Assembly (NCBI RefSeq): GCF_018986915.1 | Contig: NZ_CP076723.1 | Span: 2,761,501 to 2,825,500 of the forward strand | Direction of reading: 5' to 3' | DNA from: Geomonas oryzisoli | GTDB taxonomy: Bacteria > Desulfobacterota > Desulfuromonadia > Geobacterales > Geobacteraceae | Length of the DNA stretch: 64,000 nt | In this document: piece after piece, positions 34,448 through 50,998 of the stretch | Numbering within the stretch: position 1 is the first letter of the stretch | How the letters are laid out: every line of letters begins with the position of its first letter | Position numbers and translations under genes: made by a program | Notes under the pieces: model-generated | What the model was told of the DNA's origin: nothing | Seen by the model: the letters and a program-made list of their open reading frames with translations, nothing else | Databases searched by the model: none

Positions 34448-34858
34448 ATGCAGAGGCGTTTGGTGGTAACTATGGCAATTTTGGCACTGATAACCGGCGG
34501 CGTGACAGGGTGCAAGAAGAAGAGCGAGGAGCAGGCACAACCTCCACAAAGTGTGGTTTCGACCGCCAAGTCGGCAACGACAAACGCTCCGCCGGCTCCG
34601 TCGGCGACCGGGCTCACCGGAGAACAGCTCTTCAAGCAGCATTGCGCGGTCTGCCACCCCAACGGCGGCAACACCATCACCCCGTCGAAAACCTTGAGCG
34701 CCAAAGCCATGGCCGACCGAAGCAAGATCACCAAGCCGGAGGACATCGTCAAGATCATGCGCCACCCCGGCCCGGGCATGAACAAGTTCGACGAGGGGAT
34801 GATCTCCAACGACGACGCCAAGAAAATCGGCCAGTACATCCTGTCCACCTTCCCCTGA
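34448..34858 (+). CDS. c-type cytochrome lipoprotein
   Basis: 136 aa. Signal peptide with lipobox VTGC (C22), Ser/Pro/Ala linker (about 25-55), then a single haem motif CAVCH (66-70) and candidate methionine ligands around residues 104-118 (MRHPGPGM, NKFDEGM). The pattern fits a class I mono-haem cytochrome anchored on the periplasmic or outer face. AGGAGG with 6-base spacer precedes the ATG. It could act as an electron carrier in anaerobic respiration. Confidence 0.88.
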   Translation: MQRRLVVTMAILALITGGVTGCKKKSEEQAQPPQSVVSTAKSATTNAPPAPSATGLTGEQLFKQHCAVCHPNGGNTITPSKTLSAKAMADRSKITKPEDIVKIMRHPGPGMNKFDEGMISNDDAKKIGQYILSTFP

Positions 34859-35279: not shown

Positions 35280-38200
35280 TCAGCGGCAGGGAACGAACCG
35301 GACCGATTCTGCGGTCTCGCGCAGCAGGTCTCCCAGGCAGGCCAGCACGTAGTCCATTTCCTCCTCCGTGTTCGACCACCCCAGCGAAAAGCGCACCGAG
35401 CAGTGCGCCTGCTGCGGCGTGAGCCCCATGGCGAGCAGCGCGTGGGACGGGTCGGGGTTCCCCGACTTGCAGGCGGACCCCGACGACAGCGCGATCCCCT
35501 GCCGGTCCAGATGCAGCACCAGCGACTCGCCCCGTATGCCGGGGAGGTGCATGTTGAGCGTGTTGGGGAGGCGCTGCAATGCCGGCCCGTTGCGTCGTGC
35601 GCCCGGAAGCAGCCCGAGGATCCCCCGTTCCAGGCGATCGCGCAGTTCCGCCAGGCGAGCCGGCTCCCCGGCATGCAGTTTCTGCAGGGCGAGCTCCACG
35701 GCCTTGGCAAAGCCGACGATGCCGGGGACGTTCTCGGTTCCGGCCCGCAGCCCCCGCTCCTGTCCCCCTCCCGTTATGATCGGCGCAAGACGCACATCCC
35801 GCCCCAGGTAGAGCGCCCCCACCCCCTTGGGGCCATGCACCTTGTGCGAGGAAATGGTCAACAGATCCACGCCCAGCTTTTCCACGTCCAGCTCCAGCTT
35901 CCCCAGGGCCTGCACCGCGTCGCAGTGGAAGAGCGCCCCGTGACGATGGGCGAGGTCGGCGAGTTCCGCCACCGGCTGCAGCGCCCCGGTCTCGTTGTTG
36001 GCCAGCATCACCGAGACCAGCAGCGTGTCCGGCTCCAGGGCCCGCTCCAGGGTTTCCGGACGCAGCACCCCTTCCGCATCCACGGGGAGCACCGTGAGCC
36101 GGTAGCCGCCCCCCTCCAGGGCCCGGCAGGTGTTGAGCACGGCCGGGTGCTCTACGCTGCTGGTGATGAGGTGACGCCTGGAGCCGTCGCCGGCCAGTGC
36201 CGCGCCGCGGATGGCGAGGTTGTCCGCCTCGGAACCGCCGCCGGTAAATACGATGCGGCGCGCCGTGCAGTTCAGTGCCAACGCGAGGGTCCGCCGGGCT
36301 GCGTCGAGGGCGCTGCGGGCGCGATTACCCGCACCGTGGATGCTGGAGGGATTGCCGAACTCCTCGGCGAGAAAAGGGAGCATCGCCTCGCGTACCTCGG
36401 CGTGCACCGGGGTGGTCGCGTTGTGGTCCAGATAGACCAGGCGCTGCGGTGATGACTCGAGGCGCCGCACGGTTTGGGCGGTGTAACTGCAGGGAGACGG
36501 CACCGCTGTCGATGCGGCGCGCCCCTCCTGCGCTTCCTCTTTCACGATCCGGCAGAGCAGGGTCTTGTACACCGGGAATCCGGAGACGGGGTCGAAGCGG
36601 TTCGGGTCGGTGAGCTGGTTCACGTTGCACTCACGCCAGGCCTTCGGCCCGAGCGGCCCTCCCCCTCCCATCGCCGCGTCGATACAGCCGCGCGCGATAT
36701 CCTCGGTCACCTGGGCACGAAAGAGCGCCCTCCCCCGCGGCGTCTCCACCCAGACCCGCTCCCCGTCGGCCACACCGTGCTCGGCGGCGTCTTCCGCGTT
36801 CAAGGTTACCGGCGGCTCGGGCAACGGGTCGGAGAGGTCGGCCACGCCGTGGTGCTGGGTGCGGAAGTCGTGCAGGTTGCGCGCGCCTGAGTTGAACACG
36901 AGCGGGTAATCCCGTGCCAGCACCGGATCCGCCAACGGTCCCTCCCCGGGCTCGGTGTAGACCGGCAGCGACGGATAACCGTGCTCGGCCAGGATGGAGG
37001 AGGCGATCTCGAACTTGCCGCTGGGGGTGTTGAAACCTGGCCTGCCGTCCGGGCGCAGCAGCCCCTTCTCCCACTTCCTGTACTGCATCATCACGGTCGG
37101 CACGCGCGCTTCTCCCCCCGCGGCCATCACCTCTTCGAGGGTGAAGCCGGTACCCTCGAGCGCGAACCGGAGCAGTTCTTCTTCGCTTTGCGGGTAGAGC
37201 CCGCCGTAGCCCAGCCGTCTGGCGAGCTCAGCCTGGATGAAGAAGTCGTTGCGCGCTTCCCCCTGCGGCACAACCAGGCGTTCCCTCACCTTGAACAGCG
37301 GACCGTAGCGCATGTAGGAGACGTTTTCGTAGTAGGTGGTCGCCGGGAGGACGATGTCGGCGTAGGCGGAATCGGCGGTGTGGTAGCGGTTGATGGTAAC
37401 CAGAAAGTCGAGCGTGCCCAGGGTCCGGCGCCAGAGTTCCGGGTCGGGCCAGGCCGTGATCAGCGAGCCTCCGAGTACGATCAGGGCGCGGATCGGGTAT
37501 GGCTTTCCCTCCAGGACCGCCTCGGGGAGGACCGAGGCGTGCGACTCCCCGCGGTAGGAGCTGTAGACCGGGAAACGGTCACGCCCCAGCGCGCGCTTCA
37601 TGTCGGGGTTGGCGATCAGGCCTGACCGGTTCTGCGGGAAGATGTTCTCCTTCATGCGGAACAGAAGCCCGCCGGGAACGTCCAGCTGTCCCGCCAGGGC
37701 GAAGAGGATAAACACGGCACGGATGGCCTGGACGCCGCTGTCCGAATACTCCAGTCCGGAGTACATCACCGGCACGGCGCCGCGGGCGGCGGCCAGCTGC
37801 CGCGCCAGCTCGCGAATGGTCCCGGCGGGGATCCCGGTGACGGCCTGGGCCGACTCCGGGCGGTAGTGCTGCGCCAGGGCGCAAAGTTCCTCGAACCCCA
37901 CGGTCCACTCCCTGGCAAAGCGCTCGTCGTAGAGCTCCTCCTCCACCAGGACGTCGATCAGCGACAGGGCCAGCGCCCCGTCGGTACCCGGCCGGATCGG
38001 GATCCACAACGCCTCGGCCTCGCGCGCCGTCTCGCCCCGGCGCGGGTCAATGGCCACGACGCGGGCGCCGCGCTCCCGTGCCTGAAGTATCTGGCGGTGC
38101 GCCAGGGGAGGAGAGTCGGTTGCGGGGTTCGCCCCCCAAAGGACGATCAGCTCCGCCTGTTCCAGGTCCGTCTCCATGGTGGTCAGCATCTCACCCATGG

Positions 38201-38687
38201 TGACGTGCGGGGCGATCATCGCGAAGGAGACGTAGCAGAGGGCTCCCACGCCGAGCGTGTTGGGGGAACCGAACGGAAAGAGGACGCTGGAGGCGGAGGA
38301 GACCGCCGCGTCGGCGGGCTGAAACAGGTCGCACAGGGCCATGTCGAAGCTGCCCCGGCCGGTGTAGATCGCCGCCGTTTCCGGGCCGCGATCCTTTTTG
38401 AGATCCTCCAGCCGGGTCACGATGATGTCGAAGGCTTCGTCCCAGGTGATGCGCTCGAAGTCGTACCCGCCCTTAGGCCCCCGACGGCGCAACGGGTAGA
38501 GCAGCCGGTCAGGATCGTGCACGATCTGAGGCGAATGACGCCCGATGCGGCAGAGCATCCCCAAGGGAGTTCCCGCCCGAGGCTCCACGCCGACGAGCCT
38601 GCCGTCCCGGAGGGTCGCGGTGACGAAACAGCCGGCCGGGCAGATGCCGCAGAGTCCATCGCGCTGCTCCACGCCCTCCCCGGTCAT
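35280..38687 (-). CDS. Fusion of molybdopterin oxidoreductase and cysteine desulfurase (probable metallopterin-dependent ergothioneine synthase)
   Basis: 1135 aa in two parts. Residues 1-730 form a DMSO-reductase-family molybdopterin enzyme: 4Fe-4S cysteines C13, C16, C20 and C46 (CGICPAGC ... C), FGSPN at 139-143, and C151 as probable Mo/W ligand. Residues 750-1135 form a complete NifS/IscS-type desulfurase: YLDHNATTP, H847 (SVEHPA), PLP lysine K949 (SSHKVHGPKG) and persulfide cysteine C1073 (SSGSACKSG). ATG 38687 has AGGAGG 5 bases upstream and overlaps the stop of the EgtD-like gene. I infer that the desulfurase domain hands sulfur to the metallopterin site, which inserts it into trimethylhistidine. 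I recall a metallopterin-dependent ergothioneine synthase from Caldithrix of similar design. Confidence 0.9.
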   Translation of the reverse strand: MTGEGVEQRDGLCGICPAGCFVTATLRDGRLVGVEPRAGTPLGMLCRIGRHSPQIVHDPDRLLYPLRRRGPKGGYDFERITWDEAFDIIVTRLEDLKKDRGPETAAIYTGRGSFDMALCDLFQPADAAVSSASSVLFPFGSPNTLGVGALCYVSFAMIAPHVTMGEMLTTMETDLEQAELIVLWGANPATDSPPLAHRQILQARERGARVVAIDPRRGETAREAEALWIPIRPGTDGALALSLIDVLVEEELYDERFAREWTVGFEELCALAQHYRPESAQAVTGIPAGTIRELARQLAAARGAVPVMYSGLEYSDSGVQAIRAVFILFALAGQLDVPGGLLFRMKENIFPQNRSGLIANPDMKRALGRDRFPVYSSYRGESHASVLPEAVLEGKPYPIRALIVLGGSLITAWPDPELWRRTLGTLDFLVTINRYHTADSAYADIVLPATTYYENVSYMRYGPLFKVRERLVVPQGEARNDFFIQAELARRLGYGGLYPQSEEELLRFALEGTGFTLEEVMAAGGEARVPTVMMQYRKWEKGLLRPDGRPGFNTPSGKFEIASSILAEHGYPSLPVYTEPGEGPLADPVLARDYPLVFNSGARNLHDFRTQHHGVADLSDPLPEPPVTLNAEDAAEHGVADGERVWVETPRGRALFRAQVTEDIARGCIDAAMGGGGPLGPKAWRECNVNQLTDPNRFDPVSGFPVYKTLLCRIVKEEAQEGRAASTAVPSPCSYTAQTVRRLESSPQRLVYLDHNATTPVHAEVREAMLPFLAEEFGNPSSIHGAGNRARSALDAARRTLALALNCTARRIVFTGGGSEADNLAIRGAALAGDGSRRHLITSSVEHPAVLNTCRALEGGGYRLTVLPVDAEGVLRPETLERALEPDTLLVSVMLANNETGALQPVAELADLAHRHGALFHCDAVQALGKLELDVEKLGVDLLTISSHKVHGPKGVGALYLGRDVRLAPIITGGGQERGLRAGTENVPGIVGFAKAVELALQKLHAGEPARLAELRDRLERGILGLLPGARRNGPALQRLPNTLNMHLPGIRGESLVLHLDRQGIALSSGSACKSGNPDPSHALLAMGLTPQQAHCSVRFSLGWSNTEEEMDYVLACLGDLLRETAESVRFVPCR

Positions 38688-39754
38688 AGCTGCCTCCTGG
38701 GCTTGCGGAGCGAATAAATGGGGCGACGGCGCAGCAGCAGGAGTGCGAACCAGCGCCGCTCGTCGGTGAACACCCTTTCCACGCTGAAGCCGCAGCGCTC
38801 CAGGTCCGGGACCACCCGATCCAGCCGGAACTTCCTGCTGATCTCGGTCTGGACCAGTTCCCCCTGCCCGATGGTGATGGTCTTTCCCGGAGGGGTCAGC
38901 CGGAAGCTCTGCGCCCGGGTGAAACGCGCCGAGATCTCCACCAGCTCCTGGTCCCGGCGGTACCACGCTGCGTGCTCGATGGCATCGAGGTCGATGGCGG
39001 AGCCCAGTTCCCGGTTCATCCGGGCGAAGAGGTTCCGTGTGAAGCGCGCCGTGACCCCGGCCTCGTCATTATAGGCCGACTCCAGCAGTGACCGTTCCTT
39101 GACCAGGTCGAGGCCCAGGAGGAAGAAGTCGCCGGGGCGCAGCGCTGCGGCCAGCGCGCGGACGAAGCACGACATCTCTTCGGGGGTGAAGTTGCCGATG
39201 CTGCTCCCCAAAAAGGCGACCAGCACCGGGGAGAGCTGCGCCAAAAGAGGAAAAGACTCCCGGTACTGGCACTGGACCCCGACCACCTCGACCGCCGGGT
39301 ACGTGGAGCCGACCCGCTCGCAGGCGGCGCAAAGGGAGGCGGCACTGACGTCGACCGGGTAGTACCGGGTCGGTCCTTCCTGCTCCAGCCAGGCCCGCAG
39401 CAGGTGGTCCGTCTTCTGGGAGCTCCCCGACCCTAGTTCCAGTATGCGGAGGGGGCCGGTCAGCTCCCGGATTTCTGCGGCACGGGCGGCCAGTATCGAT
39501 GACTCGGTGCGGGTGAGATAGTATTCGGGCTGCCGGGTGATCTCCTCGAAAAGGGCACTCCCCTCGGCGTCGTAAAGAAAGCGGCTTTCGAGACGGCGCG
39601 GGTCGGAGCGGAAGCCGCGCACACAGGCGTTGGCGAAATCTTCTATGGGATCGGAACTAAGCGCAGGTTGCACGATGGCGGGGGTGCGTTTCAGACACGC
39701 CTCGCGCAGGTTGCGGCAAAGATGCGACTCGGGCGAGGCGAAAAAAGCATCCAT
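38684..39754 (-). CDS. egtD: L-histidine N-alpha-methyltransferase (EgtD-like)
   Basis: 356-aa SAM-dependent methyltransferase of the EgtD family, which converts histidine to trimethylhistidine (hercynine). Diagnostic segments: FLYDAEGSALFEEITRQPEYY (near 64), SAM motif ELGSGSSQKTDHLL, FLGSSIGNFTPEEM, GLDLVKERSLLESAYND. The substrate residues known from mycobacterial EgtD seem preserved: Asn in GSSIGNF, and E304/S306 in QTEIS. AAGGAGGGAGTC precedes ATG 39754. It is coupled by a 4-base overlap to the molybdopterin-desulfurase fusion. No EgtB, EgtC, EgtE or EanB-like rhodanese gene is nearby, which suggests the fusion does the sulfur step. Confidence 0.9.
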   Translation of the reverse strand: MDAFFASPESHLCRNLREACLKRTPAIVQPALSSDPIEDFANACVRGFRSDPRRLESRFLYDAEGSALFEEITRQPEYYLTRTESSILAARAAEIRELTGPLRILELGSGSSQKTDHLLRAWLEQEGPTRYYPVDVSAASLCAACERVGSTYPAVEVVGVQCQYRESFPLLAQLSPVLVAFLGSSIGNFTPEEMSCFVRALAAALRPGDFFLLGLDLVKERSLLESAYNDEAGVTARFTRNLFARMNRELGSAIDLDAIEHAAWYRRDQELVEISARFTRAQSFRLTPPGKTITIGQGELVQTEISRKFRLDRVVPDLERCGFSVERVFTDERRWFALLLLRRRPIYSLRKPRRQL

Positions 39755-39797
39755 GACTCCCTCCTTGGTTCATTATCACTTGCAAAAAGATCAAAAG

Positions 39798-39825
39798 ATT
39801 ATAAATAACTAATCTTCTGCGTCAA
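39798..39825 (-). promoter_or_regulatory. Sigma-70-type promoter of the egtD-fusion operon
   Basis: Minus-strand TTGACG (39825-39820), 16-base spacer, TATAAT (39803-39798). The match is excellent and it lies 44 bases before the EgtD start codon. It suggests constitutive or simply regulated expression. Confidence 0.65.
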
Positions 39826-39903: not shown

Positions 39904-41097
39904 ATGACAGGCAAGAACATGGAAAAAGAGGAAAATATCGAGCTGGCCGCGGAGATCATGCTGGAGTTCGCCGCACAGACCGGTCTCTCCAAGGAGAACA
40001 AAACGCCGCGGCGCTATCTCTGGACCGACGCCTTCGCGGTATGCAACTTCCTGGAGCTCCATCATCACACCCAGCAGGAGGAGTGGCTGGTGCTGGCCCG
40101 GCAGCTGGTGGACCAGGTGCATCATATCCTGGGGCAGCACCGCCCGGATGCGGCCAGAAGCGGCTGGCTGAGCGGCTTGAGCGACGAGGAGGGTGGACGG
40201 CATCCCACCCGGGGCGGACTGCGCATCGGCAAGAAGATGGACGAACGGGCGCCGGACGAGCCGATGGACGAACGACTGGAATGGGAGCGGGACGGGCAGT
40301 ACTACCACTACCTGACCAAGTGGATGCGCGCCCTGTGCCGCATCAGCCGGGCGACGGGGGAAGCCGGGTACCTGCGTTGGGGGATGGAACTGGCACAGAC
40401 GGCGCACCGGGCATTCCGCTTCAGCGCGGCGCCCGAAGGCGCTTTGGAGCTGTGCTGGAAGATGAGCAGCGACCTCAGGCGCTCCCTGGTTCCCTCGGTC
40501 GGTCAGCACGACCCGCTGGACGGGCTGGTGACCTGCTGCGAGCTCCTCTGCGCCGCCCGGCATTTCCCCGACCAGGAGTTGCCGGACCTGCAGCGGGAGA
40601 TCCGGGAGTTGACCGAGATGTGCCGCAACAGGGACTTCAGCACCAGCGACACCCTGGGGATCGGGAGCATCCTGATCGATGCCTGCCGGACCGGCGAACT
40701 GATCATCAACGACGCTTTCCAGAACCTCGCCCTTTTCCAGCGGATGGTGCACGACGCCCTTTTGTCCCTGGAGGATTGCGGCGGAGGCTTTCTGGATCAG
40801 CAAGCCAGATACCGGCTGGCGTTTCGCGAACTGGGACTCTCGATAGGGTTGAAGGGTTCCGCTCGGCTCGCCAGGCTGTTCGAGGAGTACCCGGACGTGC
40901 GAGGGGGCGAACTGGCCGCATGGCTGCAGCCCCGGCTCGAAGCCATGCTATGGTTTCACAAGATGGCCGGAAGGATAGAAAGGTTCTGGATCGAGGAGAG
41001 GAGGAAGGGGTCGGAACACTGGAAGTCCCACGGCGACATCAACATGGTGATGCTCGCGACGAGCCTGGCCCCGGGACAGTTTCTCAAAGGCAGCTGA
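39904..41097 (+). CDS. Unknown alpha-helical protein, divergent from egtD
   Basis: 397-aa soluble protein, predicted almost entirely helical and rich in Trp, His and Glu. Conserved-looking blocks are YLWTDAFAVCNFLELHHH, HRPDAARSGWLSG, HPTRGGLRIGKKM, and DGQYYHYLTKWMRAL. The alternating helical pattern with a DAF and a DGQYYHYLTKW block resembles (alpha/alpha)6-barrel sugar enzymes, but I cannot name a family. AGATCGAC precedes ATG 39904 with no strong ribosome site. It is transcribed away from egtD; whether it shares the pathway is unknown. Confidence 0.6.
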   Translation: MTGKNMEKEENIELAAEIMLEFAAQTGLSKENKTPRRYLWTDAFAVCNFLELHHHTQQEEWLVLARQLVDQVHHILGQHRPDAARSGWLSGLSDEEGGRHPTRGGLRIGKKMDERAPDEPMDERLEWERDGQYYHYLTKWMRALCRISRATGEAGYLRWGMELAQTAHRAFRFSAAPEGALELCWKMSSDLRRSLVPSVGQHDPLDGLVTCCELLCAARHFPDQELPDLQREIRELTEMCRNRDFSTSDTLGIGSILIDACRTGELIINDAFQNLALFQRMVHDALLSLEDCGGGFLDQQARYRLAFRELGLSIGLKGSARLARLFEEYPDVRGGELAAWLQPRLEAMLWFHKMAGRIERFWIEERRKGSEHWKSHGDINMVMLATSLAPGQFLKGS

Positions 41098-48971: not shown

Positions 48972-50141
48972 CTACTTGTTCAAGAACTCGCGCCCAAACG
49001 GCGACATCGCGCGCAGGCGGGAGATGATGGGCGGCAACGCTTCGATTACCGCATCGATGTCGTCATCGGTGGTGAACCTGGACAGCGAGAAGCGGATGGA
49101 ACCGTGAGCGCAGGTAAAGGGAACGCCCATGGCGCGCAGCACGTGCGACGGCTCCAGGGAACCGGAGGTGCAGGCGCTGCCGGAAGAGGCGCAGATCCCC
49201 TTCTCGGAGAGCAGCAGCAGGATCCCCTCCCCTTCCACGAACTCCATGGCGATGGAGAGGGTGTTGGGCAGACGCTCGGTGCCGCCGCCGTTGATCCTGG
49301 TGTTCGGGATCAGCGCGGTCAGTTCACGCTCCAGACGGTCGCGCATCTCGCGCACGCGCCCGGCCTCATCCGCCATGTACTGCTCGGCCAGCTGACAGGC
49401 CTTGCCCATGGCGATGATGGAAGCGGTGTTCTCGGTGCCGGCCCTGCGGCCGCGCTCCTGGTGCCCGCCGACCAGCATCGGGCGGAACGGGGTGCCGCGA
49501 CGCACATAGAGAACACCGACGCCCTTGGGGGCGTGCAGCTTGTGCCCGGACAGGGAGAGCATGTCGATGGCGGATTCAGCCATGTTCAGCGGAATCTTTC
49601 CTACCGCCTGCACCGCGTCGGTGTGGAACAGAGCACCCTTCTTCTTGACGATCTTGGCGGCTTCTTCGATCGGGAAGATGACGCCGGTCTCGTTGTTGGC
49701 GTACATGAGCGAGACGATCGCGGTATCTTCGTCGACCAGCCGCTCCAGTTCGCTCAGGTCGAGTTGCCCGTTACCGTCCACGTTCAATTCGGTCACACGG
49801 TAGCCGCGCTTGGAGAGGTTGCGGCACTGGGTCAGCACCGCCGGGTGCTCGACGCGGCTGGTGATGATGTGACGCTTCTCCGGGAAGACTTCCAGCGCCG
49901 AACGGATGGCGGCGTTGTCGCTCTCGGTGCCGCAAGCGGTGAAAACGATCTCGTCCGGCAGGGCGCCCAGAAGCGAGGCGACGCGGGCGCGGGCTTCATC
50001 GACCTTCTTTTGCACCTGCCCACCGAAGAAGTGCATGGAACTCGGGTTGCCATACAGCTCGCAGAAGTAGGGACGCATCTCCTCGAAAACCCGCTCGTCC
50101 ACCTTGGTGGTGGCGTTGTTGTCAAGATAGATCTCTCTCAT
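48972..50141 (-). CDS. nifS: Cysteine desulfurase (NifS/IscS)
   Basis: 389-aa PLP enzyme that provides sulfur for Fe-S clusters. Motifs: YLDNNATTKVDE, RVEHPA (His), ANNETG, SGHKLHAPKG (PLP lysine), persulfide cysteine in SSGSACTSG. AGGAGG with 7-base spacer precedes ATG 50141. Follows nifU with a 4-base overlap. It is separate from the desulfurase domain fused to the molybdoenzyme (35280-38687). The two share the same active-site layout but are clearly different in sequence. Confidence 0.95.
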   Translation of the reverse strand: MREIYLDNNATTKVDERVFEEMRPYFCELYGNPSSMHFFGGQVQKKVDEARARVASLLGALPDEIVFTACGTESDNAAIRSALEVFPEKRHIITSRVEHPAVLTQCRNLSKRGYRVTELNVDGNGQLDLSELERLVDEDTAIVSLMYANNETGVIFPIEEAAKIVKKKGALFHTDAVQAVGKIPLNMAESAIDMLSLSGHKLHAPKGVGVLYVRRGTPFRPMLVGGHQERGRRAGTENTASIIAMGKACQLAEQYMADEAGRVREMRDRLERELTALIPNTRINGGGTERLPNTLSIAMEFVEGEGILLLLSEKGICASSGSACTSGSLEPSHVLRAMGVPFTCAHGSIRFSLSRFTTDDDIDAVIEALPPIISRLRAMSPFGREFLNK

Positions 50142-50998
50142 CCCTGAACCTCCTGTACCGTGATGTCGGGGGAAACCAGTTCGCGCAGCTTCTGCTCGAC
50201 GAACCTGGCGGTGTAGCCGGAGGAGGCGCAACCGGCGCAGGCCTTCCTGAAGGCGACCTGGACGTTGGAGCCGTCGATGTCGATCAGTTCGAGGTCGCCG
50301 CCGTCAGCCCACAGCTGCGGACGCACTTCGTTCTCCAGGGTTTCCTGGATCAGCTGCATCTTCCTGAGGTTGGTCAGTTTCGCCGGCTTCTCGACAGCCG
50401 CCTTCTTCTCTTCGCCCAGCACCTCGGCGATCAGTTCCTTGATCTTCGGGATGCAGCCGCCGCAAGCGCCGCCGGCCTTGGTGAAGTGGGTGACCTGCTC
50501 CGCCGTGGTCAGTTTGTTGGAGGCGATGACCTTCTTCAGGAAAACGTCGGTCAGGCCGAAGCATTTGCAGACCAGCTCACCCTCGCTTTCGACATGGTCA
50601 TGGCCGTGGCCGTGTGCCGGCGCCTCGACGCCGCGATACTTGGCGATGGCGACTTCCAGCGCCTCCTGCCCCATGACCGAGCAGTGCATCTTCTCTTCGG
50701 GAAGCCCGCCCAGGAAATCGGCGATCTGCTGGTTGGTGATCTCGAGAGCCTCGTCCAGTGTCTTGCCCTTCACCATCTCGGTCAGAGCCGAAGACGAAGC
50801 GATGGCGCTGCCGCAGCCGAAGGTCTGGAATTTGGCGTCGACGATGCGCTCTTTGTTCTCGTCCAGCTTTATAAACAGCTTAAGGGCATCGCCGCAGGCC
50901 AGGCTGCCAACCTCGCCGACCGCATCAGCATCCGTTATCTCGCCCACGTTCCTGGGGTTGAGGAAATGTTCTTTTACTTTATCGGTGTAGTCCCACAT
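50138..50998 (-). CDS. nifU: Three-domain Fe-S scaffold protein (NifU)
   Basis: 286 aa in the full NifU layout. The IscU-like domain has C35, C62 and C106. The central BFD-like domain has CKCFG and CGGC and holds a 2Fe-2S cluster. The C-terminal Nfu domain (about 215-286) carries CAGC. It builds and hands on Fe-S clusters. A His-rich linker (HGHGHDH) joins the first two domains. The pairing nifU-nifS without iscR/hscAB fits the NIF-type system used by many anaerobes for general cluster assembly. Confidence 0.95.
   Translation of the reverse strand: MWDYTDKVKEHFLNPRNVGEITDADAVGEVGSLACGDALKLFIKLDENKERIVDAKFQTFGCGSAIASSSALTEMVKGKTLDEALEITNQQIADFLGGLPEEKMHCSVMGQEALEVAIAKYRGVEAPAHGHGHDHVESEGELVCKCFGLTDVFLKKVIASNKLTTAEQVTHFTKAGGACGGCIPKIKELIAEVLGEEKKAAVEKPAKLTNLRKMQLIQETLENEVRPQLWADGGDLELIDIDGSNVQVAFRKACAGCASSGYTARFVEQKLRELVSPDITVQEVQG

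Follow-up and report, generated by a model that had tools for sequence, protein, structure and literature searches.

The window analysed here is a stretch of 64,000 nucleotides from Geomonas oryzisoli, a member of an iron-reducing genus (contig NZ_CP076723.1, positions 2,761,501 to 2,825,500), a genome assembled as one 4.85 Mb contig. Its minus strand carries a gene pair in which egtD is followed by a fusion gene with an ATG start, joining a molybdopterin (MPT) enzyme to a cysteine desulfurase. A first-pass annotation, made from the letters of the window, had described an EgtD gene that overlaps such a fusion by 4 bases, and both its coordinates and its open reading frames proved right to the base. 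The two genes very probably constitute a complete pathway to the antioxidant ergothioneine that needs no O2 and takes its sulfur from cysteine, the fusion acting as a metallopterin-dependent ergothioneine synthase (MES). The features of the locus are listed below.

38684 to 39754, minus strand: egtD, the leading gene of the pair, 356 amino acids, predicted histidine N-alpha-trimethyltransferase (from TIGR03438, PF10017, PDB matches and residues)
35280 to 38687, minus strand: mes, predicted metallopterin-dependent ergothioneine synthase, bis-molybdopterin guanine dinucleotide (bis-MGD) module plus NifS/IscS-type cysteine desulfurase, 1135 amino acids (from identity, residues and fold)
36522 to 38687, minus strand: MPT module, residues about 1-722, with iron-sulfur (FeS) cysteines C13, C16, C20 and C46, metal ligand C151, and C119 and C712
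35280 to 36443, minus strand: cysteine desulfurase module, residues about 749-1135, with pyridoxal phosphate (PLP) lysine K949, persulfide C1073, C1096 and tail C1134
38684 to 38687, minus strand: ATGA 4-base overlap of the egtD stop and the mes start
39798 to 39825, minus strand: predicted promoter TTGACG-16-TATAAT (exact, unique match)
39760 to 39766, minus strand: AAGGAGG, putative egtD ribosome binding site immediately 5' of the start codon (from visual inspection)
39795 to 39816, no strand: palindrome AAGATTA-N8-TAATCTT (7-8-7) over the -10 box, a candidate operator

The EgtD protein scored 310.3 bits against TIGR03438 (cut-off 290.9) and 317 bits against PF10017, and its PDB matches were EgtD or histidine N-alpha-methyltransferase. 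Window residues Y61, F69, Y78, N188, Y228, T235, E304 and S306 correspond, at a constant offset of 22, to EgtD Tyr39, Phe47, Tyr56, Asn166, Tyr206, Thr213, Glu282 and Ser284, so that all eight of these residues, named around the bound ligands in PMC8593015, are kept. The earlier reading as an EgtD-like methyltransferase with the substrate residues of its family is borne out by both score and histidine-binding residues. In these respects the protein resembles the TIGR03438 family, and it differs in its partner, which is MES rather than EgtB of the aerobic route or the rhodanese EanB. At position 306, equivalent to the carboxylate-binding Ser284, the 61 aligned sequences (window plus 60 MES-linked) have Ser in 46 cases, Cys in 9, Gly in 1 and a gap in 5.

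The fusion matched PF00384 at residues 61-490, PF01568 at 603-709 and a NifS-type desulfurase (class V aminotransferase domain) containing K949 and C1073 at 751-1123, in agreement with its description as a molybdopterin enzyme fused to a complete cysteine desulfurase. NifS/IscS cysteine desulfurases are the closest NCBIfam family to the C-terminal module, the best model being TIGR03402 (NifS) with 477 bits, below its cut-off of 530.75. MES adds to these a C-terminal tail, which ends Cys-Arg or Cys-Lys in 78 of the 80 named loci (the best 80 of 396 relatives), the remaining two sequences being incomplete. By sequence, the best PDB match of the MPT module was acetylene hydratase (2e7z). An AlphaFold2 model of the fusion, computed from an alignment of 44 sequences (window plus 43 of the 80 named loci), had a mean predicted local distance difference test score (pLDDT) of 82.5, and Foldseek returned 2e7z as its best match, then human NFS1 cysteine desulfurase. 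Among solved structures, acetylene hydratase is hence nearest to the MPT module in both sequence and fold, and shares with it a Cys-rich N-terminus and a Cys metal ligand, although it lacks a desulfurase and catalyses a hydration. Nine segments of the model had pLDDT < 50, including the metal-ligand loop 148-158, the linker 720-745, the persulfide-Cys loop 1072-1077 and the tail 1126-1135 with C1134. These low-confidence loops and tail fit a mobile sulfur relay, but are no proof of one.

An enzyme of this architecture, in which an acetylene-hydratase-like module is fused to a cysteine desulfurase, was published in 2022 as the MES of the deep-sea microbe Caldithrix abyssi (CaMES; PMC9516567), and is the metallopterin-dependent ergothioneine synthase to which the first-pass annotation had pointed. 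The window pair is a further case of this already published class, and its mechanism is not new. For CaMES, desulfurase activity of the C-terminal module and ergothioneine formation in vivo were shown (PMC9516567). The residues named are the FeS ligands Cys14, Cys17, Cys21 and Cys48, the metal ligand Cys153, Lys952 (PLP), Cys1074 (persulfide), Cys1097 and Cys1135; the enzyme needs Cys153, Lys952, Cys1074 and Cys1135, with an effect of only two-fold for Cys1097 (PMC9516567). We used as reference a 1136-residue protein from the Caldithrix abyssi metagenome-assembled genome (MAG) HyVt-577 (L117), which may differ from the strain of the paper and has the nine residues in register. The window fusion is 61% identical to it across 1130 residues and keeps all nine, as C13, C16, C20, C46, C151, K949, C1073, C1096 and C1134. 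The comparison with the Caldithrix enzyme by alignment and structure that had been suggested thus gave full-length identity, the published residues and both the acetylene hydratase and desulfurase folds. CaMES and the window protein are alike in domain order, length (1136 against 1135 amino acids), the nine named residues and a co-encoded EgtD; they differ in sequence to the extent given, and the window host also encodes OvoA.

Conservation was counted across 81 aligned MES (window plus the 80 named loci). C151, K949 and C1073 are each present in 81/81, and each FeS cysteine in 80/81, one row being without its start. C1134 was found in 79/81, the other two rows being cut at contig ends, while C1096, likewise in 79/81, is substituted in two. 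The closest relatives of the window protein among these best 80 of 396 are from Geomonas (89%). The record titles of the named loci include Gemmatimonadota, Actinomycetota, genera of Planctomycetes, Nitrospira, Myxococcales, Bacteroidetes, archaea and others, many of them MAGs. For some of these hosts a strictly anaerobic life is not evident, which is hard to square with the word 'exclusively' in PMC9516567.

We searched a sample of 395 genomes of the phylum, together with genus (n = 19, including Citrifermentans bremense) and family (n = 48) sets, and counted MES at E <= 1e-180, a threshold that misses fragments and distant forms. The phylum sample gave 26 matches to the fusion, of which 14 were fused (the window genome included) and 12 were unfused, molybdopterin-only proteins; alignment A1 included all but one of the fused proteins from other genomes (12 of 13). 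An EgtD over its cut-off was present in 14/14 genomes with a fused MES, and the 12 genomes with an unfused protein had no EgtD match. At each of the 13 further fused loci in this sample EgtD adjoins MES, downstream in 12 and upstream in 1. Among the named loci it occurs in the examined stretch of 60/80, upstream of MES in 41 of those 60, as in the window; in the remaining 20 genomes, EgtD exceeds the cut-off in 17 and reaches 287.6 bits in one. At least two genomes (L099, L115) belong to both the named-locus and the phylum set. EgtB exceeded its cut-off in 0/14 MES genomes, compared with 3/7 genomes that have EgtD (just below its cut-off in one of the seven) but no MES match; two more of these seven had near full-length EgtB matches below the cut-off, and in G198 two EgtB pieces lay in one frame. 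These counts cover EgtD and EgtB in the survey proposed by the first-pass annotation.

A tree of the MPT modules was built from 63 sequences and 716 columns. Besides the window protein and four of the window genome's own molybdenum (Mo) enzymes, it took in 20 of the 80 named MES, 13 of 16 MPT-B loci and, from the phylum sample, 13 fused and 12 unfused proteins. All fused MES, including the Caldithrix sequence, formed one clade (34/34, support 0.963) apart from the four Mo enzymes, which served as outgroup. MES and EgtD distances were correlated with r = 0.719 over 53 sequences (out of 61 with an EgtD, >300 aligned letters being required), compared with a maximum of 0.13 in 2000 permutations. 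In four congeners without MES (G403, G405, G408 and G420), EgtD and MES are both missing at the corresponding site, where a cytochrome c gene (34448-34858 in the window) adjoins the 39904-41097 gene.

An O2-independent ergothioneine pathway of two genes in this Geobacter relative, as first proposed, is therefore the best reading of the pair, because the testable features of the Caldithrix enzyme are present, the fused proteins form one clade, and EgtD accompanies each fused MES of the phylum sample. The case for the window pair is made from homology, residues, clade, co-occurrence and gene order, while we infer product formation and the need for the individual residues by transfer from the Caldithrix enzyme. 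EgtD would spend three S-adenosylmethionines on trimethylating the histidine alpha-amine, the product being hercynine (trimethylhistidine, TMH). The PLP-dependent C-terminal domain (K949) would move the sulfur of cysteine onto C1073 as a persulfide, and C1134 of the flexible tail would transfer it to the bis-MGD Mo/W centre, which has C151 as its ligand. Attack of the imidazole C2 of TMH on the metal sulfide would then yield ergothioneine. The persulfide relay and the metal-sulfide chemistry are themselves a proposal in PMC9516567, and we infer the same sulfur path for the window protein.

Two further cysteines are candidates for the metal-side end of such a relay. C119 is found in 81/81 fused MES, and is replaced by Lys in all six unfused sister proteins linked to a methyltransferase (see below). 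C712 is likewise found in 81/81, as well as in all 6 + 6 unfused proteins and the 13 MPT-B aligned; its column holds three gaps and one Val in the four other Mo enzymes of the window genome. The equivalents in the Caldithrix MAG protein are residues 121 and 714, numbers that do not appear in the main text of PMC9516567.

Several observations weigh against this assignment. Two of the 80 named MES genomes, both MAGs, have no EgtD match. A stop interrupts the MES frame of L010 (phylum sample) and of L099 (named loci), which are one and the same protein. MES is patchy among relatives, occurring in 7/19 genus and 14/48 family genomes, and in 0/16 other phylum-sample genomes that share the family, order or class of the window genome. 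The congener G414 (L232 4877-6160) retains EgtD beside a match to the first 73 MES residues only, apparently a decayed synthase gene, and the pair is therefore not always kept whole. Finally, the window genome has 17 rhodanese-domain stretches and may encode an EanB: five open reading frames at four of these loci were checked by NCBIfam (one also against the PDB) and none was named EanB, no EanB profile having been run. In four congeners without MES (G403, G405, G408 and G420), EgtD and MES are both missing at the corresponding site, where a cytochrome c gene (34448-34858 in the window) adjoins the 39904-41097 gene.

Cysteine desulfurases in general can use selenocysteine, and the pair might accordingly make another thiohistidine or a selenohistidine, for example selenoneine, instead of ergothioneine. 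We regard this as very unlikely, as ergothioneine was the product of each of the four MES homologues examined in PMC9516567, and the window fusion keeps the residues required there. The OvoA protein of the genome scored 161 bits against the SenA profile (cut-off 420), OvoA alone being scored with no genome search for SenA. It is scarcely credible that the fusion works in respiration or catabolism, as a Mo enzyme of the thiosulfate reductase, formate dehydrogenase or acetylene hydratase type whose desulfurase only matures its own cofactor beside an incidental EgtD: acetylene hydratase, thiosulfate/polysulfide reductase and formate dehydrogenase are indeed the sequence and fold relatives of the MPT module, and the tree holds the four window-genome enzymes as its Mo comparators with no named respiratory enzyme or acetylene hydratase, but we reject this alternative on the strength of the constant presence of EgtD and its position next to every other fused MES of the phylum sample, the tree, the joint absence of both genes at one site in four congeners, and the ergothioneine made by published relatives of the same architecture (PMC9516567).

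The ergothioneine pathway proposed for the pair was reported to have no EgtB nearby, and this extends to the whole genome, in which no EgtB match exceeded the curated cut-off; we rejected the single weak match (171 bits, cut-off 360) as an EgtB, as it is OvoA. This OvoA, a 5-histidylcysteine sulfoxide synthase of 710 amino acids (G000:C1:4576881-4579013; L034 1330-3462), scored 705 bits against TIGR04344 (cut-off 400) and 347 bits against TIGR04345 (cut-off 170). The OvoA reaction needs O2. As OvoA and egtD-mes occur in one genome, a single organism therefore encodes both O2-dependent and O2-independent thiohistidine routes. The OvoA N-terminal model was over its cut-off in 19/19 genus and 26/48 family genomes. 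In G371 (L152) and G325 (L164), ovoA_Cterm exceeded its cut-off in frames of 263 and 364 amino acids, respectively, and OvoA is apparently split there or has its N-terminal part replaced. The OvoA reaction is described as an oxidative coupling in PMC12631010, where, in the accessible text, the OvoA route is the only one given for ovothiol.

The literature matches listed included no report of MES in Geobacterales, although the supplementary genome list of the MES paper may include members of this order; a paper on Geobacter thiols (PMC9874932) mentions ergothioneine and ovothiols, in its accessible text, merely as common thiols. The third ergothioneine route can now be placed in named strains, with records from Geomonas, Geotalea, Citrifermentans and Pelotalea. 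The role of ergothioneine without oxygen can be tested by comparing close relatives, since within one genus some members carry the cassette at this locus and others lack it there.

The unfused relatives of MES provide a separate lead. Six of the 12 unfused proteins of the phylum sample lie directly behind a methyltransferase gene encoding 313-318 amino acids, at a distance of 9-26 bp. In the tree, these six form a clade (support 1.0) that is sister to the fused MES (joint support 0.996), and the MPT-B clade (13/13, support 1.0) branches outside MES and all unfused sisters. The best PDB matches of the L035 methyltransferase were OvsM (2.7e-26), OvoM (3e-20) and OvoA (3.3e-17), which are 5-seleno- and 5-thiohistidine N-methyltransferases, with the next general methyltransferase at 4.8e-7. 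The sister-linked methyltransferase differs from OvoM, OvsM and the OvoA C-terminal domain in having a Trm112-like N-terminus, as found in those MPT-linked members that were scanned, and a molybdopterin enzyme rather than a sulfoxide synthase as partner. Pairs of this kind occur at the following loci.

L035 (4049-7225), L036, L037, L039, L040 and L041: MES-superclade MPT enzymes right downstream of an OvoM/OvsM-like methyltransferase
L182-L185, L187, L192, L194-L197, L199-L202 and L208-L210: further such MPT-methyltransferase pairs

Counting methyltransferases at E <= 1e-12 in the 395 genomes, which again misses fragments and distant forms, we found 44 places below the ovoA_Cterm cut-off, with an MPT enzyme within 400 bp in 22, or 23/44 with L192 added by coordinates. 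The methyltransferase was present in 18 of 20 genomes with an MPT-B match of at least 53% identity, against 4 of 29 with more distant matches only. We tentatively suggest from these sequence relationships that the MES superclade could be a wider family of metallopterin sulfur-inserting enzymes, whose unfused members (the MES sister clade and MPT-B), behind a methyltransferase similar to OvoM, OvsM and the OvoA C-terminal domain, might produce ovothiol or a closely related compound independently of O2, and that MES might be the branch that fused a desulfurase and switched to EgtD. In such a route the metallopterin enzyme would add sulfur to histidine, and the methyltransferase would methylate the imidazole nitrogen. 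The tail of the six sisters reads LGCVG, and its conserved Cys could take sulfur from a separate desulfurase. If true, the unfused sisters would extend metallopterin C-S chemistry to ovothiol. No O2-independent ovothiol pathway was found among the literature matches listed, most subscription papers lying outside the search.

Several findings count against the ovothiol proposal. In the examined stretches, no such methyltransferase lies next to the remaining six unfused sisters. The L035 and L040 methyltransferases have ovoA_Cterm as their best NCBIfam model, at 113 and 89 bits, which is below the cut-off of 170. MPT-B proteins are only 27-31% identical to the unfused MES sisters in full-length comparisons, and methyltransferases of the same family linked to a dipeptidase or radical S-adenosylmethionine (SAM) gene keep most of the residues of the MPT-linked members. 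The value of the sister methyltransferase as proof of ovothiol is thereby weakened, since, in stretches where no MPT enzyme was found, members of the family also neighbour a radical-SAM/PqqD-like gene, an M19 dipeptidase gene or both. The absence of OvoA from genomes with an MPT-methyltransferase pair is uninformative, because only 13/395 genomes pass the ovoA_Cterm cut-off; G088, which has such a pair, is among those that pass.

Methyltransferases of this family lie behind a radical-SAM/PqqD-like gene in L188, L191, L203, L204, L206, L207, L211, L212, L214 and L217. An M19 dipeptidase gene follows downstream in five of them (L188, L191, L211, L212 and L214), and also in L213 and L216. The methyltransferase and radical-SAM/PqqD-like gene possibly form a peptide-based route to a methylated residue.

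Upstream of the window pair, the TTGACG-16-TATAAT promoter previously noted was recovered at 39825-39798 on the minus strand. Geomonas paludis, G. anaerohicana and G. propionica (loci L060, L085 and L089) keep this block 5' of egtD, while the DNA examined further 5' is not conserved. The palindrome over the -10 box, which may be an operator, has 1 match in the window at <=2 mismatches compared with 0.01 expected. Its exact form was found in 8/235 loci, every one 5' of egtD; judged by contig coordinates, these represent 4 genomes, each present twice, namely the window genome and three Geomonas. Elsewhere in the window, 49023-50147 encodes a second cysteine desulfurase with 48% identity to the desulfurase module of MES. 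The gene at 39904-41097, which flanks the cassette or its empty site, encodes a 397-amino-acid protein with no Pfam match that was found in 12/19 genus genomes at E <= 1e-60.

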